Shown here: positions 5,527 through 13,992 of the stretch, piece after piece
Numbering within the stretch: the first letter of the stretch is position 1
Layout of the letters: each line of letters starts with the position of its first letter
NCBI RefSeq assembly: GCF_900167435.1
Contig: NZ_FUWS01000004.1
Location: 124,001-188,000 of the forward strand
Reading direction: 5' to 3'
Length of the DNA: 64,000 bases
Source of the DNA: Marinactinospora thermotolerans DSM 45154
Lineage (GTDB): Bacteria; Actinomycetota; Actinomycetes; Streptosporangiales; Streptosporangiaceae
Notes under the pieces: generated by a model
The model's database searches: none
The model's input: the letters and a program-made list of their open reading frames with translations, nothing else
What the model was told of the DNA's origin: nothing
Program-made: the position numbers and the translations under genes

Positions 5527-6282
5527 TCACCCCGTGGCGCGGCGCATGGCACGGGTGCCGATGAACAGGCCCACCGCCGCCACCGCGACGGCCGCCACCA
5601 CCCCCGCGGCGACCTCTGGTGCCAACAGCCGGCCGTCGAACAGCGCCCGTTCCGCCTCGACGACGTGGGTCAGCGGATTGAACCGGGACAGCACGCGCAG
5701 CCATTCGGGGCCGTTGTCGACCGGCAGCAGCATCCCGGCCAGCAGCAGAAGCGGGAACAGCAGGGTCTGCTGCACCCCCCAGAACACCCACTCCTGGTTC
5801 CGTGACGCCAGCGCCAGGGTGTAGGAAAGCGCGCCGAGCCCGACACAGAACACGCACAGGAGCAGCAGACCGAGGATCGCGCCCACGGGGTCGGGCCGGA
5901 ACCCGAACGGGATGGTGACCGCGATGAGCAGCGCCGCCTGGGCGAACGTCGGCACGATCTCTTTTAGCGCCCGGCCGATGATCAGCGCCGGACGGCGCAA
6001 CGGGGAGACGAGCATCCGCTCGTGCGCCCCGGTCTGCATCTCGAATTGCAGGTTGGACCCGGTGCTCGACGTCGCGAACAGGCACGACATCACGATCAGG
6101 CCGGGGACGAACCATTGCAGGGTCTCAGCGGTCCCTCCGGCCGCGGGGATCAGCGGCGCGAACAGGGCGAGGAAGAACAGCGGTTGCGCCAGGGAGAAGA
6201 CCACCGAGAACGGGTCGCGCAGCACGGGCCGCAGTTCGCGGCCGAAGACGATGAGGGTATCGCCGATGAGGGTGGTGTTCAC
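5527..6282 (-). CDS. ABC-2 type exporter permease, DrrB-like
   Basis: A 251-residue integral membrane subunit of a drug-type ABC exporter. About six hydrophobic segments are visible; the loop HERMLVSPLRRPALIIGRAL and the C-terminal NPLTHVVEAERALFDG element are typical of DrrB/NodJ-like ABC-2 permeases. It acts in the cytoplasmic membrane with the ATPase encoded just upstream; the genes overlap by 4 bp (ATGA), which implies translational coupling. The substrate is unknown. A C-terminal portion of this gene (5608-5714) is duplicated as a relic at 10148-10253. Confidence 0.92.
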   Translation of the reverse strand: MNTTLIGDTLIVFGRELRPVLRDPFSVVFSLAQPLFFLALFAPLIPAAGGTAETLQWFVPGLIVMSCLFATSSTGSNLQFEMQTGAHERMLVSPLRRPALIIGRALKEIVPTFAQAALLIAVTIPFGFRPDPVGAILGLLLLCVFCVGLGALSYTLALASRNQEWVFWGVQQTLLFPLLLLAGMLLPVDNGPEWLRVLSRFNPLTHVVEAERALFDGRLLAPEVAAGVVAAVAVAAVGLFIGTRAMRRATG

Positions 6283-7286
6283 GCCACTTCGTCCTTTCCG
6301 CCGGTGGTGCCGGGCAGGTCCGCGCCGTCCTCGCGCAGGCTGCGCCCGGTCAGGTTGAGGAACACGTCGTCGAGGGTCGGGCGGACGACCTCGACCGAGA
6401 CCACCGCGCTGTTCTCCTTCTCCAGGATCCGCAGCAGTTCGGGGACGAGCCGGGCGCCGCCGGTGGCCTCGATGACGACCCGGGTGCCGTCGTGTTCGAT
6501 GCGGGCTCCCTCGATAAGGCCCGGGGGGTGGGCGGCGACGCGGCGGGCCTCCTCCGCGTGGTCGAAGGTCAGGGTGATGCGGTCGCCGGCGTGCTCGGAT
6601 CTGAGACGTTCCGGGGAGGCGTCGGCGATGATCCGCCCGTGGTCGATGACGACCACCCGCTCGGCGAGGTGGTCGGCCTCGTCGAGGTAGTGGGTGGTCA
6701 GCACGATCGTGGTGCCGTGTTCGGCCCGTAGCCGGCGGATGTGCTCCTGGAGGTTGGCCCTGTTCTGCGGATCCAGTCCGGTGGAGGGCTCGTCCAGGAA
6801 GAGCAGGCCGGGCGCGTGGATCAGCCCCATCGCGATGTCCAGCCGCCGCCGCTGGCCTCCCGACAGTGAGGACACGATCCGGTCGGCGACCTCCGTCAGG
6901 CCGAGGGAGGCGATGAGCTCGCCGGCCCGCTCACGCGCCGCGGCGGCGCTCAGCCCGTAGGCGCGGCCCTGGGTGATCAGCTCGTCGCGGCCCCGCTGGC
7001 TGTGCCCGGCCCCGTTGCCCTGTCCGATGTAGCCGATCCGCCGGCGCACCTCGCGGTCCTGGGTCGTCACGTCGAATCCGGCGACCCGCGCGGTGCCCGA
7101 GGTCGGGGGGAGGAGGGTGGTGAGCATGCGCAGGGTGGTGGATTTCCCGGCGCCGTTAGGACCCAATAATGCGACCATCTCGCCGGCCTCGACCCGCAGG
7201 TCGATTCCGCGGACCGCCTCCACTGTCTTCTTATTGACCGTGAAATGCCTGGTCAGGTTCTGTGTTTCGATCATTGTGGTGCTCAC
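6279..7286 (-). CDS. ABC exporter ATP-binding subunit, DrrA-like
   Basis: A 335-residue ATPase that powers the adjacent ABC-2 permease. It has the Walker A GPNGAGKST, the signature LSGGQRRRLD, the Walker B LLFLDEPSTGLDP and the switch His in TTHYLDEAD. A C-terminal extension of about 90 residues (VVSVEVVRPTLDDVFLNLTG) is diagnostic of the DrrA drug-resistance subgroup. Upstream, the control region merges into a 75-bp relic of the start of a WYL regulator gene, suggesting the operon once had its own divergent regulator. Confidence 0.93.
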   Translation of the reverse strand: MSTTMIETQNLTRHFTVNKKTVEAVRGIDLRVEAGEMVALLGPNGAGKSTTLRMLTTLLPPTSGTARVAGFDVTTQDREVRRRIGYIGQGNGAGHSQRGRDELITQGRAYGLSAAAARERAGELIASLGLTEVADRIVSSLSGGQRRRLDIAMGLIHAPGLLFLDEPSTGLDPQNRANLQEHIRRLRAEHGTTIVLTTHYLDEADHLAERVVVIDHGRIIADASPERLRSEHAGDRITLTFDHAEEARRVAAHPPGLIEGARIEHDGTRVVIEATGGARLVPELLRILEKENSAVVSVEVVRPTLDDVFLNLTGRSLREDGADLPGTTGGKDEVA

Positions 7287-7296
7287 CGGCGAAACG

Positions 7297-7371
7297 CTAG
7301 GGCGCTTTCAGGTCAGTTCCCGTCCGCAATGTCGGGGATGCCGTCACCACGGCGAACACGAGTGCGCGGAT
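7297..7371 (+). pseudogene. Stub of a WYL-regulator gene: promoter plus first codons
   Basis: These 75 bp match 12479-12553 with only 8 mismatches and no gaps. In the second copy the segment holds the promoter and the first eight codons of the intact WYL regulator. Here the start codon ATG reads ACG, and similarity ends after the eighth codon. The stub is divergent from the ABC ATPase, the position expected for the exporter's original regulator. Confidence 0.85.
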
Positions 7372-7479
7372 ACGGAGGTCGAGGAGGATCGCCAAAGGAT
7401 TCGGCGGTGGTTCCTCGCCGGTCGGTGGTGATCCTGGCCGTTGTGGCGGCCTTGTCGGCGTGGCCGCGCGCGGGGTCGG

Positions 7480-7684
7480 CGTCGAAGGTGTGCGAAGCAC
7501 GTGCGGACCGGACGCCTCGCCGTCGCTGGCCGGGCCGACCCCGCCGTGGTGCCGAGGGCGGAGACGGCGGTGTCGGCGGCCCGGGCGGACAGCCGCCCGC
7601 CGTCGTGGGTGCGGATCAGCGGCGCCGAGCCGGGTCGGCCGGGCTCGCCCAGGAATTCCTCAAGGGCGTGCGGGGCCGGAGTGC
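7480..7684 (-). pseudogene. Possible tyrosine-recombinase remnant
   Basis: Minus-strand translation over about 7690-7500 gives a stretch resembling the region before the catalytic HxxR box of phage-type integrases: ...APLIRTHDGGRLSARAADT, followed by RRPVRTCFAH where family members read LRHTFAT. It has no start, runs into frame breaks and lacks the catalytic residues. The match is by eye and weak. Confidence 0.3.
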
Positions 7685-8878
7685 TCAGGCCGGCGGGTGA
7701 GCCGCCGGCGCGGACGCCGCGTTGGCCGACTGGGCCTGCCCGCCACAGAAGACCTCCGTGACGAGCCGCTGCTTCGCCTTCTCGAACGCCTGGGCCGCGG
7801 CGGCGAAGTCGAGCTCGGCGTCCCCGACGGTCAGCGACGCGGTGAGGGTCGTGCCGCCGTCGGGCGTGCTGTACATCAGCGCCGCCCAGCCGGGGAAGCC
7901 GCCGTTGTGGTGGAAGACCGTGCCACCGCAGGCGGTGTCCTCAACAAACAGCCCCAGGCCGTAGCGGAAGTCGCGGCTCTTGGGGTGGGGCGTGCGCATT
8001 TCGGCCAGCAGTGGGGCCGGCAGGAGCCGGCCGCCCATGAGCGCGGAGATGAACGTGTGGAGGTCCTTGGTGGTCGAGATCATGTCACCGGCGCTGGAGA
8101 CCCAGGAGGGGTTCATGCGGGTCACGTCGGCCACCTTCGGTCGGCCAGCGTCCTCGTAGCGGTAATAACCGTGGGCGTGCGGTTCGGGGATCTCCGATGA
8201 GGCCTCCGGCAGCACGGTGTTCGACAGCCCCAGCGGTTGCAGGATCAGTCGCCGCATCTCGGCGGCCAGCGATCGGCCGGTGACCTGCTCGATCAGTAGC
8301 CTGGCCAGCACGTAGTTGGTGTTGGAGTAGCTCCAGTCCGTTCCGGGCTCGAATCGGGCCGGCTTGGACAACGCCAGCCGGACCAGCTCCTGCGGCTGGT
8401 AGGTGCGGGACAGGCCGTCCACGTACTCCTGGCCCTGCACCGGGATCCCCGGCAGGAGGGTCCCATCGGGGTCGAACTCGCCGGTGAAGTTGAACACCCC
8501 GCTGGTGTGCTGCAACAGCATGCGCACCGTGATCCGCCCGTCCAGCCCGAATCCGGGCAGGGAGTCGGCCACCGGGTCGTCCAGTCCGATCCTGCCCTCG
8601 GCCACCAGTCGCAGGACCACGGTCGCGACCAGGGTCTTGGTCGTGCTGCCGATCCGGAAATGCCCATTGGTCGGTGGTTTGGCGGTCTCGCCCAGCTTGC
8701 GCACCCCGGCGCTGCCGACCCACTCGCGCCCCTGTTCGTTCACCCGCAGCTGCATCCCGGCAAATCCGGAATCGACGATCTCCTGGATGGCCGTCTGCAA
8801 TTCCGGACGATCCTGCCCGCTGGCGGCGGAATTGTTCTGGTTGACGCTGTTCGTTCTGCTCATGGCCTGAGCGTTCAC
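7685..8878 (-). CDS. Serine hydrolase, beta-lactamase / D-Ala-D-Ala carboxypeptidase fold
   Basis: A 397-residue class C-type serine hydrolase. All three active-site elements are present: STTK (78-81), YSN (184-186) and HNG (324-326, replacing KTG). There is no signal peptide; the N-terminus is polar, so it may be cytoplasmic and act on small esters or amides rather than peptidoglycan. The start is ATG 8878, with an alternative ATG at 8863. It is divergent from the MerR gene at 9164, with a MerR-type operator between, so it is the likely target of that regulator. Esterase, peptidase and beta-lactamase activities cannot be told apart by sequence. Confidence 0.88.
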   Translation of the reverse strand: MNAQAMSRTNSVNQNNSAASGQDRPELQTAIQEIVDSGFAGMQLRVNEQGREWVGSAGVRKLGETAKPPTNGHFRIGSTTKTLVATVVLRLVAEGRIGLDDPVADSLPGFGLDGRITVRMLLQHTSGVFNFTGEFDPDGTLLPGIPVQGQEYVDGLSRTYQPQELVRLALSKPARFEPGTDWSYSNTNYVLARLLIEQVTGRSLAAEMRRLILQPLGLSNTVLPEASSEIPEPHAHGYYRYEDAGRPKVADVTRMNPSWVSSAGDMISTTKDLHTFISALMGGRLLPAPLLAEMRTPHPKSRDFRYGLGLFVEDTACGGTVFHHNGGFPGWAALMYSTPDGGTTLTASLTVGDAELDFAAAAQAFEKAKQRLVTEVFCGGQAQSANAASAPAAHPPA

Positions 8879-8995
8879 CCTGACCTCGGGGCAAGGTCAA
8901 ATCGCGATCTTCGCATCACCTCGGCGGCTCATGAGCGAAGAGCGACGCGGTGGGTCGCGGGTCCGTGCGCGCCCTTCGCTCCGCAGTCGCGCAGG

Positions 8996-9026
8996 TTGAC
9001 CCTGCCCTAAGGGCAGGGTGCACAAT
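8996..9026 (+). promoter_or_regulatory. MerR-type promoter with 19-bp spacer and 21-bp dyad
   Basis: TTGACC (8996-9001) and CACAAT (9021-9026) are separated by 19 bp, the long spacer typical of MerR-activated promoters. Arms ACCCTGCCCT and AGGGCAGGGT (8999-9019) form a perfect dyad around one base and fill the spacer. It reads towards the MerR gene; control of the divergent hydrolase is also plausible. Confidence 0.7.
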
Positions 9027-9030
9027 CACC

Positions 9031-9096
9031 ATGTGGTCACGGCAAACCCGGTCCATCCGGAGAGATCTTCCGATTCAACCTGGAGCATGGCGCTGA
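9031..9096 (+). CDS. Possible 21-codon leader ORF
   Basis: An ATG 4 nt after the CACAAT -10 opens a 21-residue frame (MWSRQTRSIRRDLPIQPGAW...) ending in TGA at 9096. If transcription starts near 9031-9033 this would be a leaderless leader peptide in the 130-nt 5' region of the MerR mRNA. It may be coincidental. Confidence 0.25.
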   Translation: MWSRQTRSIRRDLPIQPGAWR

Positions 9097-9163
9097 ATAA
9101 CGACACGCCGGCCGAGGCCATAGGCGAACCGGCCGATTGCGATAACACGCTCGGGCCGAGCCG

Positions 9164-9949
9164 ATGACAGGGAGCCGGGCCGGCGGCCTCACGATCGGGC
9201 AGGCGGCGGCATTCGCAGATGTCACGGTCAAGACCGTGCGGCACTACCACCGGCGCGGCCTTCTCGCCGAACCGCGGCGTGACAGCTCCGGCTACCGCCG
9301 GTACGGATCGGCCGACCTGTTGCGGCTGGTCCAGGTCCGGACGCTGGCCACCGCAGGCGTACCGCTGTCGGAGATCGCGCCCCTGCTCGACGCCGGCCCC
9401 GAGCAGTTCGCTGCCGCCCTCACCGACGTCGAACGGCGTCTGACCGATCAGATCACGGATCTGATCGCCCGGCGGGACAGACTGCATCGGGTCGCCGACG
9501 ACCGGGCCCTACTGCCCGACCGCGCCCTCGCGGTCCTGGACCGGATGACCGGCCTCGGTTTCAGTCCCGACTATGTGGCCACCCAACGTGAGGCCCTGGT
9601 GCTGTTCCGAGCGCTGACGCCGGAGGGGTTGGACCATTTCCTGACCAACCTCGAACACCGGTTGGCCGACCCCGAGTACGTCGACCTGATCAAGCGCAGC
9701 GTGGCGGCAGCGTCCTGGGAACCCGACGACCCCCGGATCGAGGAACTCGCCACAGCCTTTGCCGCCAACCTGCTGACCCATCGCGAGCTGCTGGTAGTAC
9801 CGGCAGGCATCAGGATCGGGCCCGACGTCGCCACCCGGTACGGGCTGATCGACCACCACCGCGAAGATCAATCGCCGGCCTGGGCCCGGCTCAACGCGCT
9901 GGTCGAAACCAAACTCCGATCCGCGGGTGTCCCCATCCCGCACCATTGA
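9164..9949 (+). CDS. MerR family transcriptional regulator
   Basis: A 261-residue regulator with the N-terminal MerR HTH TIGQAAAFADVTVKTVRHYH and wing GYRRYGSADLLRL, a dimerisation helix near residues 85-115, and a C-terminal helical domain of about 130 residues. The size suggests a TipA-like or other multidrug-sensing regulator. The start is the ATG at 9164; an SD is not obvious. The operator at 8996-9026 lies in its own leader region and between it and the divergent serine hydrolase, so autoregulation and control of the hydrolase are likely. Confidence 0.88.
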   Translation: MTGSRAGGLTIGQAAAFADVTVKTVRHYHRRGLLAEPRRDSSGYRRYGSADLLRLVQVRTLATAGVPLSEIAPLLDAGPEQFAAALTDVERRLTDQITDLIARRDRLHRVADDRALLPDRALAVLDRMTGLGFSPDYVATQREALVLFRALTPEGLDHFLTNLEHRLADPEYVDLIKRSVAAASWEPDDPRIEELATAFAANLLTHRELLVVPAGIRIGPDVATRYGLIDHHREDQSPAWARLNALVETKLRSAGVPIPHH

Positions 9950-10147
9950 CGGTCGGCTGAAGGCGACACGGCGACCTACAGAGGCGGGGGCCGAGCGTCC
10001 ACGTGGCCATCGACGCCGCCAAGACCGAGGCCGACGCGAACACGTTGCGCATACGCGCTCGACCAGTTCACCGATCGGGGTGGACGGTCAGGTGTTCTCG
10101 CGCAGGAAGCCGGCGCGCTCCTTGAGGAAAACATGGCCGCCCCCTGC
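9950..10147. other. Intergenic, no gene seen
   Basis: About 200 bp after the MerR stop with no supported frame. It borders the permease relic. Confidence 0.5.
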
Positions 10148-10253
10148 GGCGACGTCCGGCGTCAGCAGCCGGCCGTCGAACGTGTCTGTTCCGCCTCGAC
10201 GACGTGGGTCAGCGGATTGAACCGGGACAGCGCGCGCAGCCGTTCGGGGTCGT
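10148..10253 (-). pseudogene. ABC-2 permease relic (C-terminal fragment)
   Basis: This stretch aligns with 5608-5714 inside the intact permease gene at high identity with one single-base indel, covering the codons for the RFNPLTHVVEAE region. No flanking permease sequence is recognisable on either side. It is in the same orientation relative to the WYL gene at 12531 as the intact exporter is to the WYL stub at 7297, so it is read as what remains of a second exporter. Confidence 0.85.
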
Positions 10254-10364
10254 CGCGCGCTGGGCGTCGGGAACTCTTTCCGGGCTCTGTCCCGACTTTC
10301 CCCGAAACCTTGGCGCGCATACGCGGGCCTGGCCGCCAGGGTTGTGCCCCGTCCCGGATATACC

Positions 10365-10406
10365 GAAGCCCCGGCCGATGGACCAGTGAGGGGCCGGGGC
10401 TTCTTC
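10365..10406 (-). terminator. Hairpin terminator after the XRE-DUF397 pair
   Basis: GAAGCCCCGGCC and GGCCGGGGCTTC form 12-bp arms (10365-10376 and 10395-10406 with an extra paired G at the loop side). It lies 15 bp beyond the DUF397 stop. Confidence 0.7.
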
Positions 10407-10420
10407 GAAGCGATCCGGGG

Positions 10421-10618
10421 CTACAGGCGGTCGGCCTTGACGTCCTCCACGAACGCCGCGAACGCGGCCGGGGTGAACCCGAGGGCGCCCAGGTCACGGT
10501 TCTGCGTGTCGCGCACGTAGACCGTCTTCGGCGTCTCGGCCACCTCGACACACTGGCCTCCCTGGTTGCCACTGTAGGTGGACTTGTGCCAGCGCAAGCC
10601 GAGCGGTGGGGTGTTCAT
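10421..10618 (-). CDS. DUF397 domain protein, 65 aa
   Basis: A short actinobacterial DUF397 protein: RWHKSTYSGNQGGQCVEVAE followed by VYVRDTQNRD and the C-terminal FTPAAFAAFVEDVK motif. Family members are encoded next to WhiJ/Scr1-type XRE proteins and behave as their partner or antagonist in a module that resembles a toxin-antitoxin pair. The ATG at 10618 overlaps the stop of the upstream XRE gene (ATGA), so the two are translationally coupled. A longer in-frame extension to 10705 lies inside the XRE gene and is rejected. Confidence 0.93.
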   Translation of the reverse strand: MNTPPLGLRWHKSTYSGNQGGQCVEVAETPKTVYVRDTQNRDLGALGFTPAAFAAFVEDVKADRL

Positions 10619-11430
10619 AGGACTCCTATCGTGGTGACGATGAGGTCGGCGGACTCTTCCGGCGACAGTGCCAGACCAATCAGCGCACTCATCCGTTGGT
10701 CGCATTTTGCCACTTCATCTCCATCGGCGGTGACATGGCCGCTTCCGGGACGCTCTGTGTAAAGCACCTTTTCACGGGTGCTCAGTTCAAGGACGGTGAA
10801 GCCCCCGTCCATGGCCGCGTGCGCCCCCTTACTGAACGGGAGGACTTGTAGGCGAACACGGGGGCGCTCCGCCATCTTGATGAGGTGCCTGAGCTGGTCG
10901 ACCATCACGTCCCTGCCGCCGACCGGGCGACGGATGACCGATTCCTCCAGAACAACCCACAGCAGGGGCGGCTGTGGGCGGTCCATGATCTTCTGTCGCT
11001 CCAACCGGGCCGACAGTTGCCGCTCTACCTCGTCAGGGTCCGGCGGAGGCCAGTTGGCTCCGAGAACGGCGCGCGCGTAGTCTTCGGTCTGGAATAAGCC
11101 GGGGACCGACTGAACCTCGAATTCCCGAATGCTGACCGCGTCGCCCTCCAACTCCACGAATGGCCGGAACCAATCCGGATAGCTCTCCCGGTTGATGAGA
11201 GGCCACAGGTCCATGAGCGCGCCAGCGGCATCCAGGTGCTCCTCGCACGCCATGATGAACTTCTTGGAGGGAATTCGTCGGGCATTCTCGACATACCCGA
11301 CCATCGCGCCTGTATAGCCGATCTTGGCACCGAGCTGGTCTTGGGTGAGGTCCTTTTCGTTGCGGAACCTCTTCAATTGGGACCCGAAGTAGGCGACGAC
11401 CGGAGAAGAGGGCGGGGGTAGGCCGCTCAT
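10615..11430 (-). CDS. WhiJ/Scr1-type XRE regulator (HTH plus DUF5753)
   Basis: A 271-residue regulator. The N-terminal Cro/C1 HTH (residues 10-70; DLTQDQLGAKIGYTGAMVGYV) is followed by a DUF5753 domain of about 170 residues with characteristic motifs VPGLFQTEDYARAVL, RQKIMDRPQPP and PFSKGAHAAMDGGFTVLEL. Such proteins are numerous in streptomycete-like genomes and act in development or with DUF397 partners. It forms a two-gene operon with the DUF397 gene and is divergent from two small genes at 11558 and 11857. Confidence 0.93.
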   Translation of the reverse strand: MSGLPPPSSPVVAYFGSQLKRFRNEKDLTQDQLGAKIGYTGAMVGYVENARRIPSKKFIMACEEHLDAAGALMDLWPLINRESYPDWFRPFVELEGDAVSIREFEVQSVPGLFQTEDYARAVLGANWPPPDPDEVERQLSARLERQKIMDRPQPPLLWVVLEESVIRRPVGGRDVMVDQLRHLIKMAERPRVRLQVLPFSKGAHAAMDGGFTVLELSTREKVLYTERPGSGHVTADGDEVAKCDQRMSALIGLALSPEESADLIVTTIGVL

Positions 11431-11557
11431 AGCGGGAGCTCCGATGTTCTCAACTGGGCCAACGAGAAACGTGGCGCCTCATAACCAGGGATAAGCAGCC
11501 CCCAACAGAACGGGGCTTTGACTAGCAACGATACGGCCAGACCTCGACGCTGTAAGT

Positions 11558-11860
11558 ATGATCACAGAAATCGAGGACTGCGAGAACGGTCTGACTCCCG
11601 CCCTATGGCGACTCGTTCAGCGGAGCCGTGCCGAGGCACCCCGTCGATTCGTCCTGTGGGGCGTCTCCGAGAACGGCGACTTCACCGATCCCCTCTATTG
11701 GGGCTTGGAGTTTCCCGGGGGCGGCGCCATCTGCGCCAACGCCGGGGGCGCCTACGCCCGCTGCGCAAGCGCGGAGCGGACGCTCAACATGTTGAGCCTC
11801 GCTCGCCCTCTCACCCTGGTTTGGATTGACCGCGCTGTCTCAACCCCTTCTGGAGAATGA
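11558..11860 (+). CDS. Hypothetical protein, 100 aa
   Basis: I do not recognise this small soluble protein. It begins MITEIEDCENGLTPALWRLV and carries a central WGVSENGDFTDPLYWGLEF segment. It is divergent from the XRE-DUF397 pair, and its stop overlaps the start of the next gene (ATGA at 11857-11860), indicating an operon. Small genes of this kind often accompany WhiJ-type regulators; a functional link is inferred from position only. Confidence 0.65.
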   Translation: MITEIEDCENGLTPALWRLVQRSRAEAPRRFVLWGVSENGDFTDPLYWGLEFPGGGAICANAGGAYARCASAERTLNMLSLARPLTLVWIDRAVSTPSGE

Positions 11861-12222
11861 CCATGGACACCACGATCCCGCGGAACACGGCCGGCACGGC
11901 CGTCGCCAACGACAACGCCGCGTCCGACAGGGAGCCGTCCAGGCGGAAGCAGGCCGCCGCGAACCTGGTCAAAGCGATCACCGCGAAGGGAATGAGGGCG
12001 ACCGCGGACGGCAAGCGGCTGTCTGTGACGGCTCACCTCAACGGAGCGTCGCAAGCCGTGGTGCTCCGCGGTGAGTCGGGCGACGTCCGGTGGTGCATGG
12101 TGTGGGAGCCCTTCCGCGCCGAGGAGGCTCCCGAGATCGAGCCGATCCTTCCCATCGGCCAGGAGCAGGTGCTAGCCGGTCGGCTCCTGAAGGTCTTGGA
12201 GCTGGCGCAGATCCAGGTGTGA
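11857..12222 (+). CDS. Hypothetical protein, 121 aa
   Basis: I do not recognise this family. It starts at ATG 11857 (or 11863), overlapping the previous stop by 4 bp. A polar N-terminus of about 35 residues precedes a compact domain (KRLSVTAHLNGASQAVVLRG, then WCMVWEPF) that looks like a small beta-rich fold, and a C-terminal helix (AGRLLKVLELAQIQV). No enzymatic motif is visible. It is the second gene of the pair divergent from the WhiJ-type operon. Confidence 0.65.
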   Translation: MTMDTTIPRNTAGTAVANDNAASDREPSRRKQAAANLVKAITAKGMRATADGKRLSVTAHLNGASQAVVLRGESGDVRWCMVWEPFRAEEAPEIEPILPIGQEQVLAGRLLKVLELAQIQV

Positions 12223-12241
12223 CCGGGGTGCGGTACTGGAC

Positions 12242-12385
12242 GTGCTTCCGCTGCTCCGCACGTTCACTGCGAAGGACGCGCACCGGGTTCACCAGCGCCC
12301 CAAGGAGGGCGCAGCGCAGCCGGAGCCGCCCTCTGAGCCGCCACGAGCGACACCGGAGACCAACCAGGAAAGGGGCGCGCCGTAA
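12242..12385 (+). CDS. Possible small protein, 47 aa, Pro/Glu-rich
   Basis: GTG 12242 to TAA 12385 encodes a frame with favourable codon use (LLRTFTAKDAHRVHQRPKEG, then a Pro/Glu-rich tail), 20 bp after the previous gene. The upstream SD is weak. It could be a real third cistron or chance. Confidence 0.3.
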   Translation: MLPLLRTFTAKDAHRVHQRPKEGAAQPEPPSEPPRATPETNQERGAP

Positions 12386-12407
12386 GAGGGGACGGCACGG
12401 CTCCACC

Positions 12408-12438
12408 GAGCCCCGACCGCCATCCGGCGTCGGGGCTC
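12408..12438 (+). terminator. Hairpin terminator
   Basis: GAGCCCCGAC (12408-12417) and GTCGGGGCTC (12429-12438) form perfect 10-bp arms followed by TTCC, closing the small-gene operon. Confidence 0.7.
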
Positions 12439-12530
12439 TTCCCTGTCCAGGTACCAGACAGGTACTAGACCGATGCAACTAGGGTGCCTTCAGGTCAATT
12501 TCCGTCCGCAATGTCGGGGATGCTGTCGTC

Positions 12531-13523
12531 ATGGCGAACACGAGTGCGCGGATGCTGCGGTTGCTCTCCCTGCTCCAGACCCACCGGTACTGGCCCGGCA
12601 CCGAACTGGCCGGGCGTCTGGGGGTGAGCCAGCGGACACTGCGCCGTGACGTCGATCGGCTGCGCGAACTGGGGTACCCGGTCGACGCCAACCGTGGTGT
12701 GGCCGGTGGCTACCAGCTGCGGCCGGGCACGGCGATGCCGCCGCTGCTGCTCGACGACGACGAGGCGGTCGCGATCGCCGTCGGCCTGCGCGCGGCGGCC
12801 GGTGGCGCGGTGGGCGGGATCGGGGAGAGCGCGGTGCGGGCGCTGGCCAAGGTCGTCCAGGTCATGCCGGCGCGACTGCGGCGCCGTGTCGACGCGCTGC
12901 GCTCCTTCACCGTGCCCGACCCGGGGAACGAGGGGCCGGCGGTCGACGCGGAGGCCCTGACCAGGATCGCCCAGGCCTGCCGGGACGGGGAGCGGCTGAG
13001 GTTCACCTACACCGCCCGCGGCGGTGAGCGCAGTTCGCGCCTTGTCGAACCGCACTGGCTGGTCGCGCGAGGACGGCACTGGTACCTGCTCGCCTGGGAC
13101 GTCGAGCGCGACGACTGGCGCACCTTCCGGACGGACCGTCTCTCGGAGCCGCGCGCGACCGGCGTGCGCTTCCCCGCGCGCGAGGTTCCCGGGGGCGACG
13201 CCGCCGCCTTCCTGCGACAAAGGATCGCGGCGATCCCCACACGTCACCGCGTCGTGGTGGAGGTGCAGGCGCCCGCCGAGGAGGTGAAGCGGGTCGTGGC
13301 GGAATGGGGCGAGGTCGAGGCGACCGGCGAGCAGAGCTGCCGGCTGCGGATGAGCGTCGACGAACTGCACTGGCCGATACTGATCCTGGCCGCCCTGGAG
13401 GCGGAGTTCTCCGTGGTCGAGCCTTGCGAGCTGCGCGACCGGCTGCGCGACACGGGAAGACTGTTCCTGCGTTCCGTCGAGTCGACGGAAACCCCCTCTT
13501 CCGCGATAACGGACGGAAAGTGA
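12531..13523 (+). CDS. WYL-domain transcriptional regulator (HTH-11 plus WYL)
   Basis: A 330-residue regulator. The N-terminal winged HTH (RWPGTELAGRLGVSQRTLRRD-like element, residues 19-39, and the wing GVAGGYQLRPG) is followed by a linker and a WYL sensor domain (about residues 140-320) with PHWLVARGRHWYLLAWD. WYL proteins bind nucleic acids or small ligands. ATG 12531 sits about 7 nt after a GATGCT -10-like sequence, suggesting a leaderless mRNA. Its promoter and first eight codons occur again as a dead stub at 7297-7371. The VOC gene 25 bp downstream is probably co-transcribed. Confidence 0.9.
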   Translation: MANTSARMLRLLSLLQTHRYWPGTELAGRLGVSQRTLRRDVDRLRELGYPVDANRGVAGGYQLRPGTAMPPLLLDDDEAVAIAVGLRAAAGGAVGGIGESAVRALAKVVQVMPARLRRRVDALRSFTVPDPGNEGPAVDAEALTRIAQACRDGERLRFTYTARGGERSSRLVEPHWLVARGRHWYLLAWDVERDDWRTFRTDRLSEPRATGVRFPAREVPGGDAAAFLRQRIAAIPTRHRVVVEVQAPAEEVKRVVAEWGEVEATGEQSCRLRMSVDELHWPILILAALEAEFSVVEPCELRDRLRDTGRLFLRSVESTETPSSAITDGK

Positions 13524-13548: not shown

Positions 13549-13992
13549 ATGACACAGCTCAACGAACAGACCGCGACGCTGCACGCCTACTTCGGCTACC
13601 GTGACGCGCCCGCCGCCCTGCGCTGGCTCGAAAAGGCCTTCGGGTTCGTCACGACCCTGGAGTTCCCCGACGACAACGGTGGCGTCATGCACGCCGAGCT
13701 GCGGCGTGGCGACGCGGCGATCATGGTGTTCTCCGACGACGAGGGCTATGAACGCGCTCCTCGCAAGGGGCCCACCTGCGGGCAGGGCACCTATCTCGTT
13801 CTCGCGAGCCCGGCCGAGGCGGACGAGGTGTTCGCCGCGGCGGTGGCGGCCGGCGCCGAGGTGATCTGGGAGCCCACCGACACCGAGTGGGGCAACTACC
13901 GTTGCCGGGTGGCCGACATCGAGGGGTACGAGTGGACCTTCGGTGTCCACCGGCCCGGCGAGCCGGTCTCGGGGGAGTGGGATCAGGACTGA
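13549..13992 (+). CDS. VOC-family (glyoxalase/bleomycin-resistance fold) protein
   Basis: A 147-residue protein with the paired beta-alpha-beta-beta-beta units of the vicinal oxygen chelate fold. Marker stretches are YFGYRDAPAALRWLEKAFGF near residue 15, GTYLVLASPAEADEVFAAAV near 82, and the C-terminal DIEGYEWTFGVHRP. Members are metal-dependent lyases or dioxygenases, or drug-binding proteins; the function is not predictable here. It follows the WYL regulator by 25 bp. Confidence 0.88.
   Translation: MTQLNEQTATLHAYFGYRDAPAALRWLEKAFGFVTTLEFPDDNGGVMHAELRRGDAAIMVFSDDEGYERAPRKGPTCGQGTYLVLASPAEADEVFAAAVAAGAEVIWEPTDTEWGNYRCRVADIEGYEWTFGVHRPGEPVSGEWDQD

Follow-up and report, generated by a model that had tools for sequence, protein, structure and literature searches.

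Why should the promoter and first codons of a regulatory gene recur beside an exporter that lies several kilobases away, and does the regulator still control that exporter? The question is raised by a 64,000-nucleotide stretch of the Marinactinospora thermotolerans DSM 45154 genome (contig NZ_FUWS01000004.1, positions 124,001 to 188,000; hereafter the window), which carries the genes of an ATP-binding cassette (ABC) exporter and of a WYL-domain regulator. The original prediction, made from the letters alone, proposed that a module of exporter and divergent regulator had been duplicated and that the two copies decayed reciprocally, one keeping the exporter and the other the regulator. We find this proposal supported by intact modules in relatives, by complementary losses of promoter elements and by an operator common to both copies. 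The whole account, in which a duplicated module suffered reciprocal loss, the operator was kept in both copies and the WYL protein controls the exporter in trans, has in our estimate a probability of about 0.7.

Results

The kept genes are an ABC-2 permease (5527-6282, minus strand; PF01061, E 1e-28; about 60-77% identity to the permeases of intact modules), a DrrA-like ABC ATPase (6279-7286, minus strand, GTG start at 7284-7286; PF00005 and PF13732) and a WYL regulator of the helix-turn-helix (HTH)-WYL-WCX type (12531-13523, plus strand). The regulator’s domains exceed their curated cut-offs (PF13280, 79.1 bits against 21.8; PF08279, 55.1 against 25; PF25583, 37.3 against 23.9). With frames and domains intact and the WYL HTH region matching that of relatives, all three proteins look functional.

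Two repeats connect these genes. The WYL promoter and gene start at 12479-12553 recur at 7297-7371 (plus strand) over 75 bp without a gap, with 67 of 75 positions identical and eight mismatches, all transitions, one of which turns the WYL ATG (12531) into ACG (7349); the pair has an E value of 6.7e-23 when the 64-kb window is searched against itself. The copy at 7297-7371 is the stub of a lost WYL gene, comprising the shared promoter region, codons 1-7 and two bases of codon 8. The permease segment at 5601-5714 recurs at 10141-10253 (minus strand) as the remnant of a second permease, with 88.6% identity and one 1-bp gap (E 6e-36, same self-search). Both repeats had been described in the original prediction, the second within slightly shorter limits (5608-5714 and 10148-10253), and alignment bears them out together with the orientations, which are those of two copies of an exporter divergent from its regulator. 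Eleven of the 12 permease mismatches are transitions, and the spread of all 12 over codon positions 3/1/2 (5/4/3), of the kind that a dead fragment would show, indicates decay for the most part free of coding constraint. Divergence is equal for the two pairs (8/75 and 12/113, about 10.6%). At 7372-12480, the self-search gave no match better than chance to any further part of the ATPase, permease or WYL genes.

The intact side-by-side module that the prediction led us to look for exists in relatives as a permease-ATPase pair divergent from a WYL gene across 62 bp. An ATPase gene is divergent within 400 bp of the WYL gene in 43 of the best 80 of 382 confirmed WYL-selected genome loci; with the loci of the G-numbered genomes added, the module is intact in 46 of 118 loci (the strain’s own loci included, some places being present in both collections). 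Starting from the exporter, a divergent WYL gene stands at all 33 other orthologs examined, with a gap of about 90 bp or less in 32; the single long gap, about 1.06 kb, is found in genome G241. They are 15 loci from the family, with E below 1e-130, taken ahead of the remaining family matches (139 genomes, E up to 1e-100), and 18 from the class, where E reached 1e-128. Among the 34 exporter loci, the window alone has no WYL gene in the fetched stretch, only the stub being in place; its WYL gene lies 5.2 kb from the exporter instead of at the spacing of about 62 bp. The usual gap of 62 bp is exactly the one implied by the window stub (7287-7348). A comparison of flanking genes for the old location of either copy gave no consistent synteny. 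In genome G023, the WYL gene and operator are intact and the ATPase match ends after 128 residues (L168, 11234-11617); the truncated ATPase adjoins, by eye, an apparent MFS gene.

To describe the shared promoter region, 99 intact loci (duplicates included) were reduced to 62 distinct intergenic sequences, of which 41 with an ATG or GTG start and the exact 62-bp spacing were kept and 21 dropped. In these 41 relatives, an inverted repeat of about ATTnnGGnCA-N5-TGnCCnnAAT lies between the genes, flanked by two outward promoters. The half-site starts 16 nt before the -10 box, which reads TANNNT toward the exporter and NANNNT toward the WYL gene, each in 40 of 41 relatives; with distances of 6-10 or 12-16 nt in place of 11 between half-site and hexamer, at most 1 (exporter) and 5 (WYL) sequences fit. 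Relative to the WYL start codon, the hexamer occupies -12 to -7 and the centre of the half-site lies at -26, a spacing from which the transcript probably starts at the ATG itself; in the window, leaderless starts are predicted at 7286 and 12531. The first nine WYL codons (12531-12557 in the window) are largely conserved at the nucleotide level in the 41 relatives, several synonymous positions included, which possibly reflects constraint on a leaderless start.

The strict operator pattern is present in 32 of the 33 exporter orthologs (L153 is without it), and both copies in the window have the palindrome: at 7306-7330 beside the exporter, with the exporter-facing half-site TGACC at 7311-7315, and at 12488-12512 beside the WYL gene, with the WYL-facing half-site CGTCC at 12503-12507. 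A sequence-only operator model (R1) was built from 29 relatives’ sites (26 beside exporters and three at orphan WYL genes), the window being excluded. When 150 of 1,985 first-look candidates in the strain’s own 5.66-Mb genome were scored, the best score went to the WYL copy (18.8 bits, E 0.008) and the next best to the exporter copy (18.6 bits, E 0.0096), so the operator that the prediction expected to be common to 7287-7350 and 12440-12530 is there. Wherever an operator column is conserved in 80% or more of the relatives, the two copies agree, and the four positions at -52 to -8 where they differ belong without exception to the 22 columns, out of 45, that vary (chance about 0.05 by hand, suggestive only). 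Within the 75 bp, both copies depart from conserved columns at -28, -26 and -4; being common to both, these departures predate the split of the copies.

The promoter halves have been lost in a complementary manner. Toward the exporter, the exporter copy retains TGACC-N11-TAGCGT, with the -10 box at 7294-7299 (minus strand); toward the dead WYL gene, it has GATGCC (7337-7342, plus strand), lacking the final T that is conserved at -7 in 98% of the 41 relatives, and ACG (7349-7351, plus strand) for ATG in a column that is 100% T. The WYL copy retains CGTCC-N11-GATGCT toward the WYL gene, with the -10 box at 12519-12524 (plus strand), and its exporter hexamer, at the end of the homology, is broken to TAGTTG (12476-12481, minus strand). 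Each copy thus holds only the half-site/-10 unit that faces its surviving gene, and the 16-nt arrangement is preserved for both survivors, on separate operators. G241 presents a second split module: a 188-aa reading frame lies between exporter and WYL gene, an operator stands on each side (27.2 and 18.7 bits) and, by eye, each side keeps only its own -10 box.

The break in the lost WYL gene coincides with a transposon end. The stub ends at 7371 (7373 with one more mismatch), and at 7374-7410 (plus strand) begins a 37-bp sequence matching in 30 positions a Tn3-like terminus that recurs in family genomes. The 27-base core, with up to 3 mismatches, occurs in 27 of 341 family genomes, the strain’s own included, and a reversed-pattern control in none; to the left of the terminus, the sequence looks unrelated from locus to locus. 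By a simple text test, 6 of 30 terminus loci have a transposase-like start, 7 a recombinase tail (the window’s locus, L240, among them) and 17 neither. The frame next to the terminus is DUF4158 in L135 (PF13700, E 7e-16), and L269 has a full recombinase (PF00589). L268 (2063-6450) has two facing termini, an inverted pair, with a 5-bp target duplication, and its frame beside the terminus has no Pfam match. Tn3-family terminal inverted repeats, which are about 38 bp long, are represented by one end in the window and by the pair in L268. The terminus length, GGGG start, DUF4158 and 5-bp duplication are marks of the Tn3 family. Within the 64-kb window, there is no second terminus, and so no pair with a 5-bp duplication, and no transposase of Tn3 type. 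A further copy of the terminus is located at C20:293549 in the same genome.

Adjacent to the terminus, 44 bp from the end of the stub, is the relic of a tyrosine-recombinase tail (7415-7549, minus strand; 7454-7549 has 81% identity over 98 nt to L172, and 7415-7453 was assigned by eye). The L172 translation matches PF00589; the relic in the window was not recovered by protein-level search and is a DNA-level match only. The terminus of about 37 bp beginning with GGGG, the DUF4158 frame and the 5-bp duplication in L268 resemble Tn3-family elements with a tyrosine recombinase (the Tn4430/TnpI type), from which the window differs in retaining just one terminus and the recombinase relic.

Beyond the module, R1 returned three weaker sites in the strain’s own genome, none significant on score: the third (C26, 13.0 bits, E 0.59) precedes a mycothiol-transferase gene, the fourth (C23, 12.2 bits, E 1.0) has no clear target and the fifth (C22, L306 2190-2212, 11.7 bits, E 1.5) precedes a VOC-like gene. 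The C26 site (L182 5984-6011, gene at 6054-6611) is followed by TAACCT at the correct spacing, the transferase family being that of a target of the mycobacterial WYL activator SiwR, and the C22 site has, by eye, TACCTT at the same spacing. In 16 genomes, 150 candidates were scored in each and 30 of the 62 listed hits were read. The module or WYL site was recovered at E up to 1 in 15 of 16 (G346 being the exception) and was the best hit in 11. Six of the 16 genomes, belonging to three genera, have the operator before AlkZ-like glycosylase genes, with E values from 7.5e-6 to 0.0025 (L281, L282, L288, L294, L295 and L296, all of whose proteins except that of L295 were Pfam-scanned). It also precedes mycothiol-transferase genes in G074 and G023 (E 7e-6 and 1e-4) and, in G351, an NmrA-like gene (E 0.019). 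Several hits, including the best one of G010, have no clear target.

The ground between the survivors is occupied by other genes. Where the lost WYL gene stood, there is a serine hydrolase of beta-lactamase fold (7685-8878, minus strand; PF00144; under all NCBIfam cut-offs shown), followed by a MerR-family regulator (9164-9949, plus strand; PF13411, PF00376). Where the lost exporter stood, there is a DUF397 plus XRE/DUF5753 pair (10421-11430, minus strand; PF04149, PF19054), beside which two reading frames at 11558-12222 have no Pfam match. A VOC/glyoxalase-fold protein (13549-13992, plus strand; PF00903) is encoded 3' of the WYL gene. The serine hydrolase has a paralog about 93 kb off on the same contig (window 7733-8816, L175 9107-10190; 78% DNA identity). 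A second DrrAB-like exporter (L173 7401-9178) has no WYL partner and is situated about 72 kb from a second WYL gene (L174 7659-8594) on the same contig, which has a similar half-site upstream (by eye). This exporter (C20:29400) was considered as a third module copy and rejected, as it belongs to a separate, roughly 60% group; the 14 fetched members of that group have no WYL match in their 3.3-4 kb loci.

Discussion

We suppose that the ancestral module, a permease-ATPase pair divergent from a WYL gene across a 62-bp shared promoter/operator, gave rise to two tandem copies. In the left copy, a Tn3-like transposon would have broken the WYL gene at codon 8-9, after which the remainder disappeared and the WYL promoter decayed, the exporter and its promoter staying in place. 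In the right copy, the DUF397/XRE cassette would have replaced the exporter, with the break inside the exporter -10 box, and the WYL gene with its promoter stayed. Both copies have retained the palindromic operator.

The same pieces could have come together in another way, if the second copy was acquired by recombination from a close relative already without the exporter, the reciprocal loss having occurred in two lineages and being united here. It is common for a WYL gene to lack the exporter and yet be preceded by an operator-like site (seen by eye at most of the 16 genes read, L066 being without one); in G023, a complete WYL gene adjoins a truncated ATPase; and a divergence of about 10.6% is compatible with a congener. 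We nevertheless consider such an acquisition unlikely, since the permease remnant has no third-position excess (5/12), so that much of its divergence postdates the loss of function, and the order of the pieces is exactly that of a tandem copy. Very improbable, in our opinion, is that the 75-bp repeat stems from no module duplication at all and arose instead through duplication of an attachment site or target as a mobile element inserted into the WYL 5' end. This was weighed seriously after the recombinase relic was found so close to the stub, which stops exactly at the element terminus, and was set aside for the Tn3-like character of that terminus: elsewhere, this sequence is followed by a DUF4158 frame, and in L268 two such ends face each other and are accompanied by a 5-bp duplication. 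Tn3-family elements generate target repeats of 5 bp, not 75 bp, and the order, orientation and divergence of the permease remnant would be left unexplained.

It is also conceivable that the exporter copy is now expressed constitutively or answers to a different WYL protein encoded in the genome, and that 7294-7330 is preserved for its promoter function alone. The exporter still has an intact -10 box, and similar half-sites were seen, by eye, at both WYL paralogs whose upstream DNA was read; the sites of those paralogs are, however, not among the five R1 hits at E 10. Both halves of the palindrome have been preserved, even the one pointing to the dead WYL gene, and the surviving WYL protein has the same HTH region as its orthologs, which makes this possibility a rather doubtful one.

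Duplication followed by reciprocal loss and control in trans has its own difficulties. There was no congeneric genome among the relatives searched, and no intermediate was seen. In 11 of 15 other genomes, the module site has a higher score (22.5-30.9 bits) than either window operator; in G344 and G351, its score is lower (14.8 and 13.0 bits). CGTCC stands in the WYL-facing half of both window operators. Conservation of the exporter copy could be promoter conservation only, and the four other WYL matches in the strain’s genome could act at the exporter. In trees of the WYL, ATPase and permease proteins (31 rows common to all three; L168, with its truncated ATPase, left out), G080 is nearest to the window each time and no starred set includes the window; its end branches (ATPase 0.23, WYL 0.38, permease 0.33) are about two to three times the medians (0.12, 0.13, 0.14), which could mean weaker constraint on all three proteins.

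Under reciprocal loss with both operators retained, the surviving WYL dimer most likely binds both predicted sites, regulating itself and, in trans, the exporter; judging from the sequence features, the regulator probably still controls the exporter across the 5 kb between them. Unlinked genes, too, have the operator in front of them in relatives, so action at a distance, by this WYL protein or another, looks ordinary for operators of this type and control in trans is plausible.

Known WYL systems suggest how the switch may operate. SiwR of Mycobacterium smegmatis is a homodimeric WYL activator encoded about 60 bp from divergent DinB-superfamily genes (msmeg_1357-56), and the -26 region is needed (PMC10693628); PafB contacts a -26 motif in sigma adaptation (PMC11804915), and the same sources name single-stranded DNA as the known ligand of SiwR and PafBC. 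Our system resembles SiwR in the HTH-WYL-WCX regulator, the divergent spacing of about 60 bp (in the module of relatives), the palindrome between promoters and the half-site centred at -26, and in the DUF664/mycothiol-transferase family among the targets, which the present operator precedes in two relatives and weakly in the strain’s own genome. It differs in that the target is an ABC exporter and that regulator and target, each with its own operator copy, are 5 kb apart; for SiwR, the stated length of the palindrome is 19 bp (PMC10693628). With PafBC, it shares the WYL protein family and the -26 element, whereas PafBC is described as a heterodimer with a non-palindromic site (PMC11804915, PMC6789036) and here the site is palindromic and the gene single.

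As the half-site/-10 geometry is the same as in SiwR and PafB, activation is favoured over repression, by analogy and only slightly. Activation of this kind would also fit the half-sites at -26 and the lack, by eye, of a good -35 element, and the signal would probably be genotoxic or a nucleic acid. The exporter itself resembles DrrAB-type ABC exporters in the DrrA C-terminal domain (PF13732) of its ATPase and in its ABC-2 permease partner, and differs from them in falling below the curated DrrA and DrrB cut-offs; with 301.4 bits against 312.45 for TIGR01188, the ATPase is outside the DrrA subfamily as defined by that model.

The operators before AlkZ-like genes suggest a genotoxin-defence regulon. 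We would give an even chance to the broader idea that this WYL subfamily governs such a regulon (DrrAB-like exporter, AlkZ-like glycosylase, mycothiol S-transferase, VOC and NmrA proteins) through a -26/-10 code of half-site, 11 nt and TANNNT, used both divergently and in trans, with the window representing a regulator uncoupled from its target when the module was duplicated and each copy lost the opposite half of the promoter but not the operator, and G241 a similar case in another genus. Among openly licensed PubMed Central papers, we found none describing this promoter code and likewise none treating AlkZ and WYL together.

Conclusions

The locus may be regarded as the “fossil” of a local regulator-target pair becoming a distance-acting regulator, with the lost promoter bases still readable on each side. 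It yields a candidate binding site and promoter code for a WYL subfamily, and would link a drug-type exporter to DNA-glycosylase and mycothiol enzymes.

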